Source of the DNA: Leuctra nigra
Taxonomy: Eukaryota; Arthropoda; Insecta; Plecoptera; Leuctridae
Assembly (NCBI GenBank): GCA_934045905.1
Contig: OW203769.1
Span: forward strand, 2,557,202-2,621,201
Direction: 5' to 3'
Length of the DNA stretch: 64,000 nucleotides
Both the position numbers and the translations under genes were made by a program. The notes under the pieces were generated by a model. The model was not told the DNA's origin. It did not search any database and saw nothing but the letters and a program-made list of their open reading frames with translations. Of this stretch, positions 1-56,605 are shown piece by piece. Every line of letters starts with the position of its first letter. Position 1 is the first letter of the stretch.

Positions 1-3000
1 CACGCTCCCGCAGCCACGCAGTTAGCCAAGTGAGTGGGTTCATGCCCCGCTCACGGCTATGCTCATTACGTCCAGCCATGCATGTGCCATGTAATCCACG
101 TGCCATCCTGCGGCTAACTCCTTCGCATCCTTCGCATCCTTCCCATCTTTCCCAGCAGCAGTGGCATTGTCTCGGGCAGTGTCAGTGTTGGAATCGATAC
201 GTTTAGCATGTTCATTACGCTGCATCAGTTGCAGATGGAGTGAGAGATGACGTGCCATCCTGCGGCTAACTCCTTCGCATCCTTCGCATCCTTCCCATCA
301 TTCCCAGCAGCAGTGGCATTGTCTCGGGCAGTGTCAGTGTTGGAATCGATACGTTTAAACATATTCATTGCGCTGCATCAGTTGCAGATGGAGTGAGAGA
401 TGACGTGCCATCCTGCGGCTAACTCCTTCGCATCCTTCGCATCCTTCCCATCATTCCCAGCAGCTGTGGCATTGTCTCGGGCAGTGTCAGTGTTGGAATC
501 GATACGTTTAGCATGTTCATTGCGCTGCATCAGTTGCAGATGGAGTGAGAGATGACGTGCCATCCTGCGGCTAACTCCTTCGCATCCTTCGCATCCTTCC
601 CATCATTCCCAGCAGCTGTGGCATTGTCTCGGGCAGTGTCAGTGTTGGAATCGATACGTTTAAACATGTTCATTACGCTGCATCAGTTGCAGATGGAGTG
701 AGAGATGACGTGCCATCCTGCGGCTAACTCCTTCGCATCCTTCGCATCCTTCCCATCATTCCCAGCAGCTGTGGCATTGTCTCGGGCAGTGTCAGTGTTG
801 GAATCGATACGTTAAGCATGTTCATTGCGCTGCATCAGTTGCAGATGGAGTGAGAGATGACGTGCCATCCTGCGGCTTACTCCTTCGCATCCTTCGCATC
901 CTTCCCATCATTCCCAGCAGCTGTGGCATTGTCTCGGGCAGTGTCAGTGTTGGAATCGATACGTTTAGCATGTTCATTGCGCTGCATCAGTTGCAGATGG
1001 AGTGAGAGATGACGTGCCATCCTGCGGCTAACTCCTTCGCATCCTTCGCATCATTCCCAGCAGCTGTGGCATTGTCTCGGGCAGTGTCAGTGTTGGAATC
1101 GATACGTTAAGCATGTTCATTGCGCTGCATCAGTTGCAGATGGAGTGAGAGATGACGTGCCATCCTGCGGCTAACTCCTTCGCATCCTTCGCATCCTTCC
1201 CATCATTCCCAGCAGCTGTGGCATTGTCTCGGGCAGTGTCAGTGTTGGAATCGATACGTTTAGCATGTTCATTGCGCTGCATCAGTTGCAGATGGAGTGA
1301 GAGATGACGTGCCATCCTGCGGCTAACTCCTTCGCATCCTTCGCATCATTCCCAGCAGCTGTGGCATTGTCTCGGGCAGTGTCAGTGTTGGAATCGATAC
1401 GTTTAGCATGTTCATTGCGCTGCATCAGTTGCAGATGGAGTGAGAGATGACGTGCCATCCTGCGGCTTACTCCTTCGCATCCTTCGCATCCTTCCCATCA
1501 TTCCCAGCAGCTGTGGCATTGTCTCGGGCAGTGTCAGTGTTGGAATCGATACGTTTAGCATGTTCATTGCGCTGCATCAGTTGCAGATGGAGTGAGAGAT
1601 GACGTGCCATCCTGCGGCTTACTCCTTCGCATCCTTCGCATCCTTCCCATCATTCCCAGCAGCTGTGGCATTGTCTCGGGCAGTGTCAGTGTTGGAATCG
1701 ATACGTTTAGCATGTTCATTGCGCTGCATCAGTTGCAGATGGAGTGAGAGATGACGTGCCATCCTGCGGCTAACTCCTTCGCATCCTTCGCATCATTCCC
1801 AGCAGCTGTGGCATTGTCTCGGGCAGTGTCAGTGTTGGAATCGATACGTTTAGCATGTTCATTGCGCTGCATCAGTTGCAGATGGAGTGAGAGATGACGT
1901 GCCATCCTGCGGCTAACTCCTTCGCATCCTTCGCATCATTCCCAGCAGCTGTGGCATTGTCTCGGGCAGTGTCAGTGTTGGAATCGATACGTTAAGCATG
2001 TTCATTGCGCTGCATCAGTTGCAGATGGAGTGAGAGATGACGTGCCATCCTGCGGCTAACTCCTTCGCATCCTTCGCATCCTTCCCATCATTCCCAGCAG
2101 CTGTGGCATTGTCTCGGGCAGTGTCAGTGTTGGAATCGATACGTTTAAACATGTTCATTACGCTGCATCAGTTGCAGATGGAGTGAGAGATGACGTGCCA
2201 TCCTGCGGCTAACTCCTTCGCATCCTTCGCATCCTTCCCATCATTCCCAGCAGCTGTGGCATTGTCTCGGGCAGTGTCAGTGTGTGTCAGTGTTGGAATC
2301 GATACGTTTAGCATGTTCATTGCGCTGCATCAGTTGCAGATGGAGTGAGAGATGACGTGCCATCCTGCGGCTTACTCCTTCGCATCCTTCGCATCCTTCC
2401 CATCATTCCCAGCAGCTGTGGCATTGTCTCGGGCAGTGTCAGTGTTGGAATCGATACGTTTAGCATGTTCATTGCGCTGCATCAGTTGCAGATGGAGTGA
2501 GAGATGACGTGCCATCCTGCGGCTTACTCCTTCGCATCCTTCGCATCCTTCCCATCATTCCCAGCAGCTGTGGCATTGTCTCGGGCAGTGTCAGTGTTGG
2601 AATCGATACGTTTAGCATGTTCATTGCGCTGCATCAGTTGCAGATGGAGTGAGAGATGACGTGCCATCCTGCGGCTAACTCCTTCGCATCCTTCGCATCA
2701 TTCCCAGCAGCTGTGGCATTGTCTCGGGCAGTGTCAGTGTTGGAATCGATACGTTTAGCATGTTCATTGCGCTGCATCAGTTGCAGATGGAGTGAGAGAT
2801 GACGTGCCATCCTGCGGCTAACTCCTTCGCATCCTTCGCATCATTCCCAGCAGCTGTGGCATTGTCTCGGGCAGTGTCAGTGTTGGAATCGATACGTTAA
2901 GCATGTTCATTGCGCTGCATCAGTTGCAGATGGAGTGAGAGATGACGTGCCATCCTGCGGCTAACTCCTTCGCATCCTTCGCATCCTTCCCATCATTCCC

Positions 3001-4453
3001 AGCAGCTGTGGCATTGTCTCGGGCAGTGCCAGTGTTGGAATCGATACGTTTAAACATGTTCATTACGCTGCATCAGTTGCAGATGGAGTGAGAGATGACG
3101 TGCCATCCTGCGGCTAACTCCTTCGCATCCTTCGCATCCTTCCCATCATTCCCAGCAGCTGTGGCATTGTCTCGGGCAGTGTCAGTGTTGGAATCGATAC
3201 GTTAAGCATGTTCATTGCGCTGCATCAGTTGCAGATGGAGTGAGAGATGACGTGCCATCCTGCGGCTTACTCCTTCGCATCCTTCGCATCCTTCCCATCA
3301 TTCCCAGCAGCTGTGGCATTGTCTCGGGCTGTGTCAGTGTTGGAATCGATACGTTTAGCATGTTCATTGCGCTGCATCAGTTGCAGATGGAGTGAGAGAT
3401 GACGTGCCATCCTGCGGCTAACTCCTTCGCATCCTTCGCATCATTCCCAGCAGCTGTGGCATTGTCTCGGGCAGTGTCAGTGTTGGAATCGATACGTTAA
3501 GCATGTTCATTGCGCTGCATCAGTTGCAGATGGAGTGAGAGATGACGTGCCATCCTGCGGCTAACTCCTTCGCATCCTTCGCATCCTTCCCATCATTCCC
3601 AGCAGCTGTGGCATTGTCTCGGGCAGTGTCAGTGTTGGAATCGATACGTTTAGCATGTTCATTGCGCTGCATCAGTTGCAGATGGAGTGAGAGATGACGT
3701 GCCATCCTGCGGCTAACTCCTTCGCATCCTTCGCATCATTCCCAGCAGCTGTGGCATTGTCTCGGGCAGTGTCAGTGTTGGAATCGATACGTTTAGCATG
3801 TTCATTGCGCTGCATCAGTTGCAGATGGAGTGAGAGATGACGTGCCATCCTGCGGCTAACTCCTTCGCATCCTTCGCATCCTTCCCATCATTCCCAGCAG
3901 CTGTGGCATTGTCTCGGGCAGTGTCAGTGTTGGAATCGATACGTTTAGCATGTTCATTGCGCTGCATCAGTTGCAGATGGAGTGAGAGATGACGTGCCAT
4001 CCTGCGGCTTACTCCTTCGCATCCTTCGCATCCTTCCCATCATTCCCAGCAGCTGTGGCATTGTCTCGGGCAGTGTCAGTGTTGGAATCGATACGTTTAG
4101 CATGTTCATTGCGCTGCATCAGTTGAAGATGGAGTGAGAGATGACGTGCCATCCTGCGGCTTACTCCTTCGCATCCTTCGCATCCTTCCCATCATTCCCA
4201 GCAGCTGTGGCATTGTCTCGGGCAGTGTCAGTGTTGGAATCGATACGTTTAGCATGTTCATTGCGCTGCATCAGTTGCAGATGGAGTGAGAGATGACGTG
4301 CCATCCTGCGGCTTACTCCTTCGCATCCTTCGCATCCTTCCCATCATTCCCAGCAGCTGTGGCATTGTCTCGGGCAGTGTCAGTGTTGGAATCGATACGT
4401 TTAGCATGTTCATTGCGCTGCATCAGTTGCAGATGGAGTGAGAGATTGACGTG
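1..4453. repeat. Satellite array, 152-bp and 143-bp units
   Basis: About 29 head-to-tail units, each beginning GACGTGCCATCCTGCGGC. Most are 152-153 bp; a second class is 143 bp, lacking 9 bp in the short GCATCCTTC repeats. Bases 1-98 look like a degenerate or flanking portion, and clean units run from about 99. Diagnostic variants (GGCTAACTCC or GGCTTACTCC; GTTTAGC, GTTAAGC or GTTTAAAC) give each unit an identity. The minus strand gives 61-72-codon frames starting MARHLSLHLQL in several units, but 152 is not a multiple of 3, so the frame breaks at each junction; I treat these as chance frames. The array stops at about 4453, against a MITE end at 4465. Confidence 0.95.
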
Positions 4454-14180: not shown

Positions 14181-14380
14181 NNNNNNNNNNNNNNNNNNNN
14201 NNNNNNNNNNNNNNNNNNNNNNNNNNNNNNNNNNNNNNNNNNNNNNNNNNNNNNNNNNNNNNNNNNNNNNNNNNNNNNNNNNNNNNNNNNNNNNNNNNNN
14301 NNNNNNNNNNNNNNNNNNNNNNNNNNNNNNNNNNNNNNNNNNNNNNNNNNNNNNNNNNNNNNNNNNNNNNNNNNNNNNNN
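14181..14380. other. Assembly gap, 200 N
   Basis: Exactly 200 undetermined bases. The round number suggests a placeholder rather than a measured size. Apparent frames across it are artefacts. Confidence 0.98.
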
Positions 14381-16084: not shown

Positions 16085-16207
16085 AAATTCTAGCTGCAAT
16101 GTGAACTGCCTCGGTAGCTCAGCTGGTAGAGCATCTGACTGGATATCGGAAGGTCGTGGGTTCGAGTCCCACTCGAGGAAAATCTTTTCACATTGCAGTT
16201 GGTAATT
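16085..16207 (+). mobile_element. tRNA-like sequence flanked by short inverted repeats
   Basis: CTGCAATGTGAA on the left and TTCACATTGCAG on the right enclose the tRNA-like fold at 16108-16180. A related element with tRNA T-arm sequences and TTTTCAATT flanks is at 45558-45700. This suggests a mobile tRNA-derived element rather than a chromosomal tRNA gene. Confidence 0.5.
16108..16180 (+). tRNA. tRNA-like gene or pseudogene, apparent anticodon GGA
   Basis: A 73-base cloverleaf can be drawn. The acceptor stem is GCCTCGG with TCGAGGA (G1-A72 mismatch, G7-U66 wobble), the D arm is GCTC/GAGC and the anticodon stem is TCTGA/TCGGA. The loop is CTGGATA, the variable loop has 5 bases, and the T arm is GTGGG-TTCGAGT-CCCAC. 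The anticodon would read GGA (Ser), but a serine tRNA should have a long variable arm and eukaryotes normally use AGA. Base 37 is T, which is unusual. I judge it a tRNA-derived element with intact A and B boxes. Confidence 0.45.
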
Positions 16208-23349: not shown

Positions 23350-23665
23350 ACCGATATATGCAGAACAACTAAGCATGATTTAACCGAAATTCCGTAAATA
23401 ATCCCTGAATAATCACTTGTAGGATTATAGAAGAGTTCAGATTTGATTTAGAAACTGGAAAGATTGCCACAAAACCTTACATTCAATACATTCAATGTCA
23501 AAGACGAATTGTCAATGTTCAAATCAAATGTCACTGTCTCCAGGAAGTACTACAGAAATGTGCAGTGATGGTCCAATAGGTATTTTATAAACTTTCGTTA
23601 TTTATATTCAGCAAAACTGCATTTTATAAGGCACAAGTAGATCTATTTAGTTTTGAAATGAATTA

Positions 23666-24190
23666 GGTACTAAAATCAGCCACGTTGTAGTTGCACAGTT
23701 GACGACCTGAGCTTTGATGGATGATCAAGGAAACTGCTTAGGTACTAAAATCAGCCACGTTGTAGTTGCACAGTTGACGACCTGAGCTTTGATGGATGAT
23801 CAAGGAAACTGCTTAGGTACTAAAATCAGCCACGTTGTAGTTGCACAGTTGACGACCTGAGCTTTGATGGATGATCAAGGAAACTGCTTAGGTACTAAAA
23901 TCAGCCACGTTGTAGTTGCACAGTTGACGACCTGAGCTTTGATGGATGATCAAGGAAACTGCTTAGGTACTAAAATCAGCCACGTTGTAGTTGCACAGTT
24001 GACGACCTGAGCTTTGATGGATGATCAAGGAAACTGCTTAGGTACTAAAATCAGCCACGTTGTAGTTGCACAGTTGACGACCTGAGCTTTGATGGATGAT
24101 CAAGGAAACTGCTTAGGTACTAAAATCAGCCACGTTGTAGTTGCACAGTTGACGACCTGAGCTTTGATGGATGATCAAGGAAACTGCTTA
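23666..24190. repeat. Tandem repeat, 75 bp x 7, identical copies
   Basis: Seven head-to-tail units beginning GGTACTAAAATCAGCCACG start at 23666, 23741, 23816, 23891, 23966, 24041 and 24116. I see no difference between copies. All six frames of the unit contain stops, so it is non-coding although the length is a multiple of 3. The final GGTAC at 24191 begins a partial copy. Confidence 0.97.
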
Positions 24191-24195
24191 GGTAC

Positions 24196-43078: not shown

Positions 43079-43281
43079 ATGTGTCGAGGGATGGCGCTAG
43101 TGGTGTGGTTATGCGGCCTGGTGTGCATGGCCAGGGCTGCCACCTTGAGCACGAGGATTGTGAACACGCGGTACGGCAAGCTGCAGGGGCTGCTGTTGCC
43201 CATGGAGCAACATCGCTTCCTCAAGCCAGTGGAGGTGTTCCTCGGAGTGCCGTACGCAACGCCACCGGTCGGATCGAACAG
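43079..43281 (+). CDS. Neuroligin, coding exon 1 (signal peptide and N-terminal esterase-like fold)
   Basis: Neuroligins are postsynaptic type I membrane proteins whose extracellular domain has the cholinesterase fold without catalysis and binds neurexin. This exon encodes 67 residues plus two bases. Residues 1-20 form a signal peptide with a hydrophobic core (ALVVWLCGLV) and likely cleavage after ARA. Then come the first strands, RIVNTRYGKLQG (26-37), and the family hallmark VEVFLGVPYATPP (51-63). In-frame ATGs are at 43079 and 43091; I chose the first, below the stop at 43022, and either leaves a signal peptide. A possible acceptor TTTGTTTCCAG ends at 43001, so a 5' untranslated exon may precede. 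The donor CAG|GTAACT ends the exon in phase 2. Identification rests on exon 1 plus exon 2 reading smoothly as arthropod neuroligin. Confidence 0.9.
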
Positions 43282-43383
43282 GTAACTACTCGTTCATGCA
43301 TCATCTTGATGTGTTAGTTTCCCAGTAGTGGTGTTTCAGGCGCATCGACAGCGAGGTCATTTTGCGCACAATTGTTTTTTTTT

Positions 43384-43640
43384 CTAAGGGATGTCGTGGG
43401 GTGGGGTTGACCAAAGAGGCCCGGTCCGGGGGAGTCCCGAACTGGTGTGTAGGCGAGGCCAGAATGGGGACGGATCGGGGGGGGGGGGGGCGGGCCAATG
43501 GGACCCGATTTGTGGGGAAGACTGTATCGAGGGAAAAGCACGGCCAGAGAGAACCGTATATTCAAGGGAAAGTATGGGTAGGTCGACCCTGGCTGCTCTT
43601 TGTCTGGGCCTCACCACTGGCCTGACCGGCATGGGTATCA
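43384..43640. repeat. GC-rich dispersed repeat, copy 1
   Basis: Contains GGCCCGGTCCGGGGGAGTCC, a G run (43470-43481) and GGTCGACCCTGGCTGCTCTT. Similar segments recur at 51275-51410. Several frames are open because of composition; none is a recognisable protein. Confidence 0.55.
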
Positions 43641-44971
43641 CGTACATCTGAGCATATGATCACCGGCATATCCGCAGAAGTTACCCAGAAACATGGTAAA
43701 CTTGTAGTCATCTATGACACCGTCTTTTCAATGTTATCACACTGCTGTCAGTCAAAAAAGGCTTGAAAAGATTGTGCCAATTTGAAGATAGCGTATTCTG
43801 ATTAAGACTGAAATTTGTGTTGATAGTTAGCAATATTTTAGATATTTATGCTTTATGTAGGGTAAGGTAGCCGATGTTGGAAATGTACACGAAAAATCAT
43901 TCGAGAAATAAGAAAACAGGTATATTAAACATGCCGGTCATATTCGGTAACATGACACTATGTAGACCATGAATATCAATGCATTATTTACGAAAAGTTC
44001 AGTTCTAAAATCGAAATACAGCACTTATCGTGACTAATCGGATGAATCATTGAAGTCAGTTGTCAATTTTAGGTACAGGTCCCATATCGGAAACCTTACC
44101 CTATGCACATTACACTTCTCCGGTAGTTGAAAAGGTCACCTCCTTTGAGACAAAACAGAACATATATCGTAATAAAACTATACAAAGTAAGCGATAATTT
44201 CCGAATTGTTCATGAATAATCTTACGTGTTACGAACTTTCGCATTTTTTTACAAGGTTACTTTATGTCATAGATATAACTAAATTCTATACAGATATCAA
44301 AAAATCAATTACACAAAGTGTAACTACGACGTTTTGTAATTTCACTGACGATATTCATTTTAACTGTGGTGGTTAGCGACATAAGAGTTAAATCATGTTA
44401 TCGATATTTGGGTCAAACACTTGATTTAGTTGATCCGTGATCTCATTGCCTAACACTCCAGGACATTTTTAGACTTGTCTATATTTCCTTGGAAAAGTGG
44501 TTTACATGATAATATCCCGAAGAAAATGGAACACATGCATAGGTTATGATGTTATTCAAAGCAACTTGTCGTAGCTGTCAATTCCTCATGAATATTATGT
44601 TGCCATCTTACACAAGTTTCAAACCCTCACGGCCATATGGAAGTAATCGAGTCAAGAGAAATAACTCCAAGTGGATTGCTCGTCGAGAAAAATAGAGATG
44701 AGCTGTGAATGGAATGTTATTATAAATTGCAAATATGTTCTCACTGGAATAGGGAAGTTTGTTAGAATAAAAATGAATCAAATTGAATCAAAATCATAAA
44801 ATATTGATTGAATAACATTAGGTATATGTTCTGATCTCGAGGAACAAAATCTAATATGGGTTAAAAAAATTAAGATATTATGGAATAGTGTTTGGAATAT
44901 TCAAATAAATTTTCTTTACATTTTTCAAAGTTTGGAATTCGATTCATTTTCACCTTATTACAATTCACAGC
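43641..44971. other. Intron sequence, nothing recognised
   Basis: AT-rich intron 1 sequence without repeats or RNA genes that I can identify. Confidence 0.45.
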
Positions 44972-45392
44972 AATAGGGAAGTCTCGTGACATTTTATTAC
45001 AGTTAGTTTGAACATAAATAACAATGATAAACACGCTTATCATCAGCGAAAGATCAAATTTTCATTCATAAAAAACAAATTCAAATGTCATTGGATATTT
45101 TTTCGGGAAAAACGGCAGGCAATGAGAATCAGGATTGTGATGTCATTTCCAAGTCTCCAACAATGTGTTACCATGGTGATTTCTTTGTCGCCATGGCAAT
45201 ATAGCGGATTCCGATGTCATGTCGATTTTCCTGTTTTAAAATTGTAAGAAATATATCAGTCTTTGTAAATTAATTCCTTCAAACTATTTATCTCAGAACA
45301 AAAATAATACCAAATCTGTATTCAGCAACATCTAAACTTTCATAAAATACCTATTATTCTGAAATCTTATTTTAAGGAGACTTCCCTATTTC
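44972..45392. mobile_element. MITE with ATAGGGAAGTCTC ends, copy 2
   Basis: A 421-bp element with left end AATAGGGAAGTCTCGTG and right end GGAGACTTCCCTATTT. The interior matches 11028-11445. It lies inside neuroligin intron 1. Confidence 0.8.
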
Positions 45393-45557
45393 GAGTGCAA
45401 AGTCGTGCGATTCTATTTCGAATGTGATTTTAATTACTTTTATGCTCTAGTTACTAACAAAAACGAAAGAGACATGCTGAGACCTCCCGCTTGTAAAGTG
45501 ACAAGAACAAGTAATATTTTTTTTCTCATTACCTCAGATAAAATGATGTTATTAACA

Positions 45558-45700
45558 TCGAATTGAAAAGATTTACCACCAGTGGGATTCGAACCCTTGT
45601 CCCCTGATTTCCGGTCAAACTACATAGAGCACTGGAGCGGCAATTCATGTGGCCTTGGATTCGAATCCCATTGGATGTAAAATGTTTTCAATTTCCAGAT
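45558..45700. mobile_element. Inverted pair of tRNA-like fragments
   Basis: The minus strand has GGGTTCGAATCCCACTGG and the plus strand GGATTCGAATCCCATTGG: two B-box/T-arm segments facing away from each other. They are bounded by GAATTGAAAAGATTTAC and GTAAAATGTTTTCAATT. Structure and flanks resemble the tRNA-like element at 16085-16207. Confidence 0.55.
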
Positions 45701-46530
45701 GGTATTTGATTCTTATTCAAATGAATAATCTAAATTCTGATTTTGATGACGTATTTTTATTGACATCCCGTGCATATTGAACAAGTTACCTAACAACATT
45801 GCATCGCTTGAAAACTATGGCTTCGTCAAGATGTTAAAAAATGCATCTTGCCAAAATTGTAAACCAAATTTGATGTAGGAAATTGTGTTAGTAATATTTG
45901 CGACACTAGAAAAACATAAAAAGACATTCACGCAGTTTTGTGTGTGGTTCATTGTTAATTGTGACTTTAAAGCTAAACACTCATTTGTTCGTACCTTTTC
46001 ATACCTCATGTCTTTTCTTTCTGGTTCTACTTATAGGTAATTGTGTACAAAATGGGTAATGTTAGCGACGGTGTAAATATGTTGTTTTTTAATAAAGTGA
46101 TCCACAGATGAGCCCTCTTGGCTTTGTGGTGCTTTCCTGTATAGGAATCCTGCTCGTGACGTCAGAGTGGTAGAAAAATTGAGGCTGAGAGGGTAGGGGA
46201 AATGTGTCAAAGCTATAATATAAATATAATATAATGTAAAGCTATAAAGCTATAATAGCTATAAATCATATTTCTCAGATGAATATTATTTAACTTGAAA
46301 ATGTGTATGGATAAATTTTGCGTATTATTATTAGCTTGTACTTACTTAAATGTCTTTCTTTCTAAAGTAATCACTCTAAAAATGAGTTTTAGATTGCCGC
46401 TGTCAGATTTGTTATTCCCTATACTTTTGTATAGGTTGCTATGGCAACCTTTTCTCACGCAGGATGCCTATATGTGCACTTTGCTTTTGTGTAAAAATAA
46501 TAATACAATTTTTTTTTAATGTAGAATCAA
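45701..46530. other. Intron sequence with simple AT repeats
   Basis: AT-rich; 46205-46270 is a CTATAAAG/TATAATAT simple-repeat stretch. A 74-codon frame at 46295 has no recognised motif. Confidence 0.4.
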
Positions 46531-47330
46531 TACCTCCTATAACGTGTCATGACTTGTCCGCCAGGTTCAGTCCCTCCTATAACGTGTCATGACTTGTCCG
46601 CCAGGTTCAGTCCCTCCTATAACGTGTCATGACTTGTCCGCCAGGTTCAGTCCCTCCTATAACGTGTCATGACTTGTCCGCCAGGTTCAGTTCCTCCTAT
46701 AACGTGTCATGACTTGTCCACCAGGTTCAGTCCCTCCTATAACGTGTCATGACTTGTCCGCCAGGTTCAGTTCCTCCTATAACGTGTCATGACTTGCCCG
46801 CCAGGTTCAGTCCCTCCTATAACGTGTCATGACTTGTCCGCCAGGTTCAGTCCCTCCTATAACGTGTCATGACTTGCCCGCCAGGTTCAGTCCCTCCTAT
46901 AACGTGTCATGACTTGCCCGCCAGGTTCAGTCCCTCCTATAACGTGGCATGACTTGTCCGCCAGGTTCAGTCCCTCCTATAACGTGGCATGACTTGTCCG
47001 CCAGGTTCAGTCCCTCCTATAACGTGTCATGACTTGTCCGCCAGGTTCAGTCCCTCCTATAACGTGTCATGACTTGTCCGCCAGGTTCAGTCCCTCCTAT
47101 AACGTGTCATGACTTGTCCGTCAGGTTCAGTCCCTCCTAAAACGTGTCATGACTTGTCCGCCAGGTTCAGTCCCTCCTATAACGTGTCATGACTTGTCCG
47201 CCAGGTTCAGACCCTCCTATAACGTGTTGTGACTTGCCCGCCAGGTTCAGTCCCTCCTATAACGTGTCATGACTTGCCCGCCAGGTTCAGTCCCTCCTAT
47301 AACGTGTCATGACTTGTCCGCCAGGTTCAG
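46531..47330 (+). repeat. 40-bp minisatellite carrying the neuroligin exon 2 splice acceptor, 20 copies
   Basis: Exactly 40-bp units without indels; CCAGGTTCAG starts at 46561 and every 40 bp to 47321, giving 20 copies. Each unit contains CCTCCTATAACGTG, a branch-point-like GTCATGAC, TTGTCCGCCAG (acceptor) and GTTCAGTCCC. The last ten bases are the start of coding exon 2. Copies differ by single bases (for example CCCG for TCCG, GTGGCATG for GTGTCATG, CCGTCAGG at about 47120). Confidence 0.97.
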
Positions 47331-47542
47331 TCCCACACGCACGCCGGGCCCGTGGGACGGGGTACGCGTGAGCGACCGCATGGGCCCCGTGTGTCCGCAA
47401 CGGCTGCCGGACATCAGCAACGAGACGGCTGCTCTAGAGCGCATGCCCAAGGGACGGCTGGAGTACCTCAAGCGACTTCTGCCACTCCTCATCAACCAGA
47501 GCGAAGACTGTCTCTATCTCAACCTCTACGCGCCTGCGCAAG
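47325..47542 (+). CDS. Neuroligin, coding exon 2
   Basis: The first base completes Arg68 (AG|G) split with exon 1. The exon then encodes 72 residues (69-140) and one base of the next codon. Segments typical of neuroligin are FSPTRTPGPWDGVRVSD (69-85), GPVCPQRLP (88-96), NETAALERMPKGRLEYLKR (100-118) and NQSEDCLYLNLYAP (125-138). Cys91 and Cys130 correspond to the conserved first disulfide of the cholinesterase-like domain. NET (100-102) and NQS (125-127) are N-glycosylation sequons. The donor is AAG|GTAGGA at 47543, phase 1. The next exon, with the nucleophile-elbow region, is not in this window. The reading-frame join to exon 1 is exact, with no frameshift. Confidence 0.93.
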
Positions 47543-54108: not shown

Positions 54109-56605
54109 GTGTAGTTTGAATCTGCCGCGCTGCTACACGCACCAAAGGGCCGTGACCTAGCTCTCAAACTGTGTGCGCCAAGACATCTGCCTGAATGGAA
54201 TGTCCTGCAGTTTGAATCTCCCGCGCTGCTTCACACACCAAGGGGCCGTGACTTAGCTCTCAAACTGTGTGCGCCAAGACATCTGCCTGAATGGAATGTC
54301 CTGTAGTTTGAATCTCCCGCGCTGCTACACGCACCAAGGGGCCGTGACTTAGCTCTCAAACTGTGTGCGCCAAGACATCTGCCTGAATGGAATGTCCTGC
54401 AGTTTGAATCTCCCGCGCTGCTTCACACACCAAGGGGCCGTGACTTAGCTCTCAAACTGTGTGCGCCAAGACATCTGCCTGAATGGAATGTCCTGCAGTT
54501 TGAATCTCCCTCGCTGCTTCACACACCAAGGGGCCGTGACTTAGCTCTCAAACTGTGTGCGCCAAGACATCTGCCTGAATGGAATGTCTTGTAGTTTGAA
54601 TCTCCGCGCTGCTTCACACACCAAGGGGCCGTGACTTAGCTCTCAAACTGTGTGCGCCAAGACATCTGCCTGAATGGAATGTCCTGCAGTTTGAATCTCC
54701 CGCGCTGCTACACGCACCAAGGGGCCGTGACTTAGCTCTCAAACTGTGTGCGCCAAGACATCTGCCTGAATGGAATGTCCTGCAGTTTGAATCAGCCGCG
54801 CTGCTACAAGCACCAAGGGGCCGTGACTTAGCTCTCAAACTGTGTGCGCCAAGACATCTGCCTGAATGGAATGTCCTGCAGTTTGAATCTCCCGCGCTGC
54901 TACACGCACCAAGGAGCCGTGACTTAGCTCTCAAACTGTGTGCGCCAAGACATCTGCCTGAATGGAATGTCTTGTAGTTTGAATCTCCCGCGCTGCTACA
55001 CGCACCAAGGAGCCGTGACCTAGCTCTCAAACTGTGTGCGCCAAGAAATCTGCCTGAATGGAATGTCCTGCAGTTTGAATCTCCCGCGCTGCTTCACACA
55101 CCAAGGGGCCGTGACGTAGCTCTCAAACTGTGTGCGCCAAGACATCTGCCTGAATGGAATGTCCTGCAGTTTGAATCTCCCGCGCTGCTGCACGCACCAA
55201 GGAGCCGTGACTTAGCTCTCAAACTGTGTGCGCCAAGACATCTGCCTGAATGGAATGTCCTGTAGTTTGAATCTCCCGCGCTGCTACACACAGCAAGGGG
55301 CCGTGACTTAGCTCTCAAACTGTGTGCGCCAAGACATCTGCCTGAATGGAATGTCCTGCAGTTTGAATCTCCCGCGCTGCTACACACACCAAGGGGCCGT
55401 GACTTAGCTCTCAAACTGTGTGCGCCAAGACATCTGCCTGAATGGAATATCTTGTAGTTTGAATCTTCCGCGCTGCTTCACACACCAAGGGGCCGTGACT
55501 TAGCTCTCAAACTGTGTGCGCCAAGACATCTGCCTGAATGGAATGTCCTGTAGTTTGAATCTCCCGCGCTGCTTCACACACCAAGGGGCCGTGACTTAGC
55601 TCTCAAACTGTGTGCGCCAAGACATCTGCCTGAATGGAATGTCCTGCAGTTTGAATCACCCGCGCTGCTTCACACACCAAGGGGCCGTGACTTAGCTCTC
55701 AAACTGTGTGCGCCAAGACATCTGCCTGAATGGAATGTCTTGTAGTTTGAATCTCCGCGCTGCTACACGCACCAAGGGGGCCGTGACTTAGCTCTCAAAC
55801 TGTGTGCGCCAAGACATCTGCCTGAATGGAATGTCCTGCAGTTTGAATCTCCCGCGCTGCTACACACACCAAAGGGCCGTGACTTAGCTCTCAAACTGTG
55901 TGCGCCAAGACATCTGCCTGAATGGAATGTCCTGTAGTTTGAATCTCCCGCGCTGCTTCACACACCAAGGGGCCGTGACTTAGCTCTCAAACTCTGTGCG
56001 CCAAGACATCTGCCTGAATGGAATGTCCTGCAGTTTGAATCTCCCGCGCTGCTACACACACCAAAGGGCCGTGACTTAGCTCTCAAACTGTGTGCGCCAA
56101 GACATCTGCCTGAATGGAATGTCTTGTAGTTTGAATCTCCGCGCTGCTACACGCACCAAGGGGGCCGTGACTTAGCTCTCAAACTGTGTGCGCCAAGACA
56201 TCTGCCTGAATGGAATGTCCTGCAGTTTGAATCTCCCGCGCTGCTTCACACACCAAGGGGCCGTGACTTAGCTCTCAAACTGTGTGCGCCAAGACATCTG
56301 CCTGAATGGAATGTCCTGTAGTTTGAATCTTCCGCGCTGCTTCACACACCAAGGGGTCGTGACTTAGCTCTCAAACTGTGTGCGCCAAGACATCTGCCTG
56401 AATGGAATGTCCTGCAGTTTGAATCTCCCGCGCTGCTTCACACACCAAGGGGCCGTGACTTAGCTCTCAAACTGTGTGCGCCAAGACATCTGCCTGAATG
56501 GAATGTCCTGCAGTTTGAATCTCCCTCGCTGCTACACACACCAAGGGGGCCGTGAACTCGACTTCTTAGCTCTCAAACTGTGTGCGCGAAGACATCTGCC
56601 TAATC
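54109..56605 (-). repeat. Satellite array, 96-bp unit, about 26 copies
   Basis: Units of 96 bp contain CCGTGACTTAGCTCTCAAAC, TGTGTGCGCCAAGACATC and TGCCTGAATGGAATGTCC. Copies differ by a few bases (CTACACGC, CTTCACAC, CTACACAC classes) and occasional 1-bp indels. The unit is 32 codons, so the minus strand keeps long frames (138 codons at 54614-55030 and 106 at 55094-55414) repeating AKSRPLGACSSAGDSNCRTF. Indels and stops break these, and it is probably not protein-coding. Confidence 0.95.

Follow-up and report, generated by a model that had tools for sequence, protein, structure and literature searches.

We have identified a minisatellite of 20 head-to-tail units of 40 bp that lies across the boundary between intron 1 and exon 2 of a neuroligin gene of Leuctra nigra, in a window of 64,000 bases. 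Every unit repeats the acceptor of intron 1 together with the first bases of exon 2, and joining exon 1 to any unit but the last leads to an early stop. We consider it likely that the minisatellite expanded over this boundary in the layout known as a "mirage", and that the copy nearest to the exon is the one mainly used in splicing.

The coding part of exon 1 extends from Met1 to the AG of the Arg68 codon (43079-43281, + strand) and ends in AAC AG|gtaact. The Arg68 codon is split AG|G by intron 1, a phase 2 intron that measures 4043 bp when spliced at the last acceptor (43282-47324, + strand). Exon 2 (47325-47542, + strand) starts in unit 20 and comprises 218 nt, from the third base of Arg68 to Gln140 plus one base, with AAG|gtagga as its donor; the boundary between intron 1 and exon 2 was set by reading frame and homology. 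Exons 1 and 2 joined encode 140 residues that are collinear with insect neuroligins. A protein search with the joined product returned 844 proteins at E <= 0.001, and relatives among the best 120 of these carry PF00135, the named ones often being called neuroligin. The 72-residue translation of exon 2 matched 15 distinct solved-structure sequences, 14 of which are neuroligins 1-4 (best E 1.4e-08). The gene belongs with the neuroligins, carboxylesterase-like synaptic proteins, its N-terminal region being collinear with known members. When the window protein was aligned with 29 relatives chosen from the 120 listed, Asn67, Arg68 and Phe69 proved invariant. In a tree of 122 proteins (the window protein and 121 relatives), the window protein falls without resolution into a mixed insect group, and its nearest rows are beetle-like; the orders of named proteins in this and the following comparisons were assigned by their genus names.

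Tandem Repeats Finder placed the minisatellite at 46533-47334 (+ strand, 802 bp in total) with a period of 40, 20.0 copies, 96% matches, no indels and a score of 1499. Read in register, the consensus of the unit is TCCTATAACGTGTCATGACTTGTCCGCCAG|GTTCAGTCCC. In 20/20 copies, 30 intron bases that end in CAG are followed by 10 exon bases, and these last ten bases of the unit are the first ten of exon 2 (GTTCAGTCCC, then ACACGC). An earlier note, made from the sequence alone, had described 20 units of 40 bp at the intron/exon edge of a neuroligin; both the identity of the gene and the array were borne out by the structure matches, the collinearity with insect neuroligins and the repeat analysis in register, and the limits given there, 46531-47330, are corrected here. 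Seven of the 20 units (1, 2, 3, 8, 13, 14 and 20) are identical to the consensus. Divergence across the array amounts to 15 differences in 800 bases, confined to nine columns, and none of the 15 falls in the nine columns of CAG|GTTCAG, which is kept in 20/20 units. Some of the variants are private and some are common to several units (4 and 6; 7, 9 and 10; 11 and 12; 18 and 19); sharing by neighboring units is the pattern that would be expected from array turnover. Such an array is not a chance match. The unit also contains a perfect palindrome, GTCATGAC, which is altered in units 11, 12 and 18. Neither the unit nor its 30-bp intron part has a blastn match (word size 7) elsewhere in the window.

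The only AGs within a unit are the acceptor and a second site six bases downstream in the same frame (GGTTCAG|T). When exon 1 was joined to units 1-19 at both AGs of each, all 38 products ran into a stop at codon 71, 73, 75 or 77, that is, 2-8 residues beyond the split codon. The first exon-like bases of these 19 decoy acceptors recur every 40 bp, from 46565 to 47285 (+ strand). With unit 20, both products (2/2) have an open frame. Unit 20 is the true acceptor and the start of exon 2, as indicated by the collinearity of the joined product with insect neuroligins and by related open reading frames (ORFs) that enter exon 2 at the same residue. The last unit had been proposed in the earlier note as the real acceptor and exon start, with Arg68 split AG|G, and frame, homology and related ORFs all agree with this. 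The true junction (47325-47336) likewise offers two in-frame AGs six bases apart, of which the second would swap Arg-Phe-Ser for Ser. Unit 19 includes an ATG (47269-47271) in frame with exon 2, and a transcript initiated in the array could in principle yield a neuroligin without a signal peptide.

Related ORFs, most of them called on contigs, were sorted by script, after dropping those in which the match started after the third residue of exon 2 or in which fewer than three upstream residues were present. Exon 2 is entered from an apparent intron (non-homologous sequence) at exactly the Arg68 codon in 52 of 257 related ORFs, with Arg as the split-codon residue in 49 and Ser in 3. Some of the ORFs with this intron are close to sequences of named Lepidoptera, and others are YMPPVTP-type neuroligins at a greater distance. 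Phe makes up 91 of the 333 residues that precede the junction in the intron-bearing ORFs, and this richness suggests a T-rich tract read through. The window reads TCHDLSA before the junction, with no Phe and a tract poor in T compared with the related ORFs. Among 118 unnamed related ORFs, 67 are unbroken through exons 1 and 2 and for at least five residues past exon 2; these lie nearest to beetles, Orthoptera, aphids and a few others, and the intron position is therefore probably lacking in many insects. The peptide encoded by the array was found in 0/257 related ORFs, a result that says little: the closest of 162 compared exon 2 sequences has 92% identity, so that the database searched probably contains no close species.

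The acceptor of the unit is weak. From -20 to -5, 10 of the 16 positions are pyrimidines, and 38 of the 157 AGs of intron 1 upstream of the array do at least as well. Matches to YTNAY at four of five positions occur at -36, -23, -16 and -13, the first of which belongs to the exon bases of the unit before, so that the branch-point-like motifs of the unit itself are ATAAC at -23, GTCAT at -16 and ATGAC at -13. By the general rule for the distance between branch point and acceptor, ATAAC at -23 would be preferred. The idea of the earlier note that branch point, acceptor and ten exon bases were amplified as one block stands for the acceptor and the exon bases, which were copied together, and is amended for the branch point, for which ATAAC at -23 is by distance a better candidate than ATGAC at -13. 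From its own branch-point candidates to its CAG a unit is free of AGs, and every unit can therefore act as a separate 3' splice site; as is general for 3' splice site choice, the branch point chosen would settle the acceptor. A T-rich acceptor-like site, TTTTTTTTTAATGTAG, lies just upstream of the array (46509-46524, + strand). This "acceptor 0", with its first exon base at 46525, 40 bp before the acceptor of unit 1, could pull splicing into the array, and joining exon 1 to it gives a stop after 76 residues. RNA structure as a means of hiding the upstream acceptors found no support, the fold of 47175-47374 (units 17-20 and the exon start) being less stable than shuffled sequences (z = +1.71; 190 of 200 shuffles were as stable or more so).

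At the upstream edge of the array, a similarity was noticed after looking: AG-AATCAATACC, directly before the TCCTATAACG of the first unit, matches AG-GTTCAGTCCC at 8 of 12 positions. A similarity as high is found for 6 of 3231 12-mers in intron 1, or 3 of 157 when the AG is required. The 28 bases before AG-AATCAATACC give seven matches to the unit, which is the chance level, and the edge is therefore a short imperfect homology and not a whole worn unit. This homology may have seeded the first duplication. The window is rich in minisatellites, with four arrays of more than 500 bp that take up 8180 of 64,000 bases (12.8%), and in such a setting an array across an exon edge calls for no particular explanation. 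For four arrays and three known exon edges, simple arithmetic gives a rough expectation of contact of 0.38, and an array touching an exon edge is hence not surprising.

Of the other three arrays, the one at 98-4453 has 29 copies of a 152-bp unit with an inner 9-bp repeat, TCCTTCGCA, and a GC content of about 52%, against 32-45% over most of the window. The array at 23663-24195 (75-bp unit, 7.1 copies) has 100% matches and is hence very recent or homogenised. The array at 54113-56601 (96-bp unit, 25.8 copies) follows exon 2 and probably belongs to intron 2; its unit equals 32 codons, which leaves both strands open in stretches (ORFs of 125, 159 and 127 aa). Intron 1 also contains an inverted repeat (45572-45681), the arms of which carry GGATTCGAACCC/GGATTCGAATCCC; these resemble the T-arm of a tRNA, and the repeat is perhaps a tRNA-derived element. 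The single Rfam match in the window at the gathering level is a tRNA at 16108-16180. A run of exactly 200 N at 14181-14380 is presumably a scaffold gap.

The order of events that we infer would begin with a first duplication, perhaps aided by the imperfect 12-base similarity between AG-AATCAATACC and AG-GTTCAGTCCC, after which slippage or unequal exchange would have raised the number of copies to 20. Each unit would then be a self-contained weak acceptor, and the unit whose branch point is picked would set the acceptor used. Unit 20 would be used in most messages, because no other unit keeps the frame open or yields so short an exon (218 nt, with 40 nt added at each upstream step). Splicing to units 1-19 would bring a stop after 2-8 residues, and the resulting messages would probably be removed by nonsense-mediated decay, with little expected effect on the animal. 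Equal competition is doubted, because by arithmetic 19/20 of the spliced messages would then carry an early stop, which in our judgement is hard to square with a conserved gene.

Mirages were described in amphioxus as minisatellite-like tandem copies of intron-exon boundaries in BflGb6, BflGb9 and Adh3 (PMC3087553). The BflGb6 mirage takes in the 3' end of an intron together with the 5' portion of exon 2, many of its repeats carrying splice signals, and has 6 and 3 units of 150-160 bp in two haplotypes, while the units of the Adh3 mirage measure 10-72 bp; the AG/GT signals in many mirage repeats could serve as cryptic sites, and the globin RT-PCR and Adh3 data given there suggest no interference with regular splicing (PMC3087553). 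Mirages of PGBD5 and troponin C were added in a later report, according to which aberrant mRNAs do not arise from those of Adh and troponin C and, it is suggested, not from that of PGBD5 either (PMC3902484). For amphioxus, a tendency of the whole genome toward such arrays has been suggested. The L. nigra array shares with these the tandem unit that spans an intron-exon boundary (in 20/20 copies), the minisatellite-like unit (40 bp in 20 copies, against published units of 10-160 bp) and the genuine junction at the edge of the array that leads into a normal coding exon (unit 20 into the 218-nt exon). It differs from the amphioxus mirages in its host gene, an insect neuroligin, and in its 20 x 40 bp with an acceptor in every copy. 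Its edge units are identical to the consensus, whereas the edge units of BflGb6 escape homogenisation.

Other systems show a partial likeness. The two close AGs of each unit (CAGGTTCAG, same frame) recall NAGNAG acceptors, but they are six bases apart, not three, and are repeated 20 times. In the human interferon-induced gene 6-16/G1P3/IFI6, a minisatellite reportedly gives multiple splice donor sites (Nucleic Acids Res. 1995). There, too, a minisatellite over a splice junction multiplies one splice site, though donors in that gene and acceptors here: the site used in L. nigra is an acceptor, and CAG|GTTCAG, compared by eye, lacks the donor consensus past the GT. In C. elegans, one intronic minisatellite is described as enriched next to the alternate exons of genes that are multiply spliced (PMC4039745), on account of which some role of the L. 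nigra array in splicing is conceivable. A literature search, judged largely by titles, found no insect case of a minisatellite over a splice acceptor or intron-exon boundary, and a search on neuroligin and minisatellite, which by title led only to work on another subject, agrees with the earlier note, to which no such case in neuroligin was known.

An alternative to main use of unit 20 is that the 19 upstream acceptors compete with it, such that a fixed share of transcripts decays and the copy number sets the neuroligin dose. We regard this as unlikely, and as slightly less likely again the form in which the 19 decoys and their stops act as a copy-number-tuned brake, with the copy number of an allele setting the productive share of neuroligin and unequal exchange supplying dose variants. 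All 19 decoys do give an early stop, and near-identical units should be alike in intrinsic strength, but recent turnover of the array yields near-identity anyway, and splicing is reported to be regular in the amphioxus mirages despite their repeats (PMC3087553). The exon 1-2 junction of honeybee AmNLG3 is described as one of three alternative splice sites (PMC2570956) and, if it corresponds to the junction at Arg68, speaks in favor of competition. The conservation of CAG|GTTCAG in all 20 acceptors also does so, although weakly: nine unchanged columns out of 40 have, by arithmetic, a chance of about 0.10 with about nine independent changes, and selection on the splice core is not supported, 0/15 differences not being significant. 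We judge the proposed tuning by competing acceptors to be less probable than a plain predominance of the copy next to the exon.

It is quite improbable that the copy number stems from faulty assembly or from one unusual haplotype while most alleles have few copies. Minisatellites are often mis-sized, and the BflGb6 array is stated to appear aberrantly assembled in the amphioxus draft genome (PMC3087553); the present array is only 802 bp long, however, and its scattered variants, private or shared (by units 4 and 6; by 7, 9, 10, 18 and 19; by 11 and 12), would not be given by simple duplication of one unit. We give very little credence to the view that the array is kept for binding of DNA or RNA, through 20 units with ATAACGTG and the palindrome GTCATGAC, with the splice sites as passengers. 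Adjacent copies of this perfect palindrome can pair in the RNA fold, but the fold is the one that most shuffles equalled or bettered, the palindrome is broken in three units, and the unit is without a blastn counterpart elsewhere in the window. Least probable of all is that the intron was created by tandem duplication of AG|GT and that the array is a leftover of this event. In the model of Rogers, introns are gained or shifted when proto-splice sites are duplicated in tandem, and Drosophila cases have been described (PMC2891723); the unit does contain AG|GT, duplicated near an exon edge in an insect as in those cases. Here, however, the intron position is common to other insects and only the 3' side is repeated; only 4 of 10 bases agree between the donor of exon 1 (gtaactactc) and the unit (gttcagtccc). 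A recent gain, suggested by the 67 read-through ORFs, was rejected in view of the 52 ORFs, distant neuroligins included, that have the same intron at the same codon.

We therefore return to a minisatellite that probably expanded over the edge between intron 1 and exon 2, the copy next to the exon being the one that splicing would mainly use. The layout is not new in kind, but within its class this array stands out for its insect host, its gene, its 20 copies and its full complement of decoys. It extends the mirage layout from amphioxus, as known from the literature found, to an insect brain gene. Twenty near-identical acceptors in series, with a stop after each of the first 19, amount to a natural experiment on how one 3' splice site is picked among competitors: as the first made, as the nearest to the exon or by the exon itself. 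If copy number altered the productive share of messages, the array would exert a fast-changing dose control on a synaptic protein.
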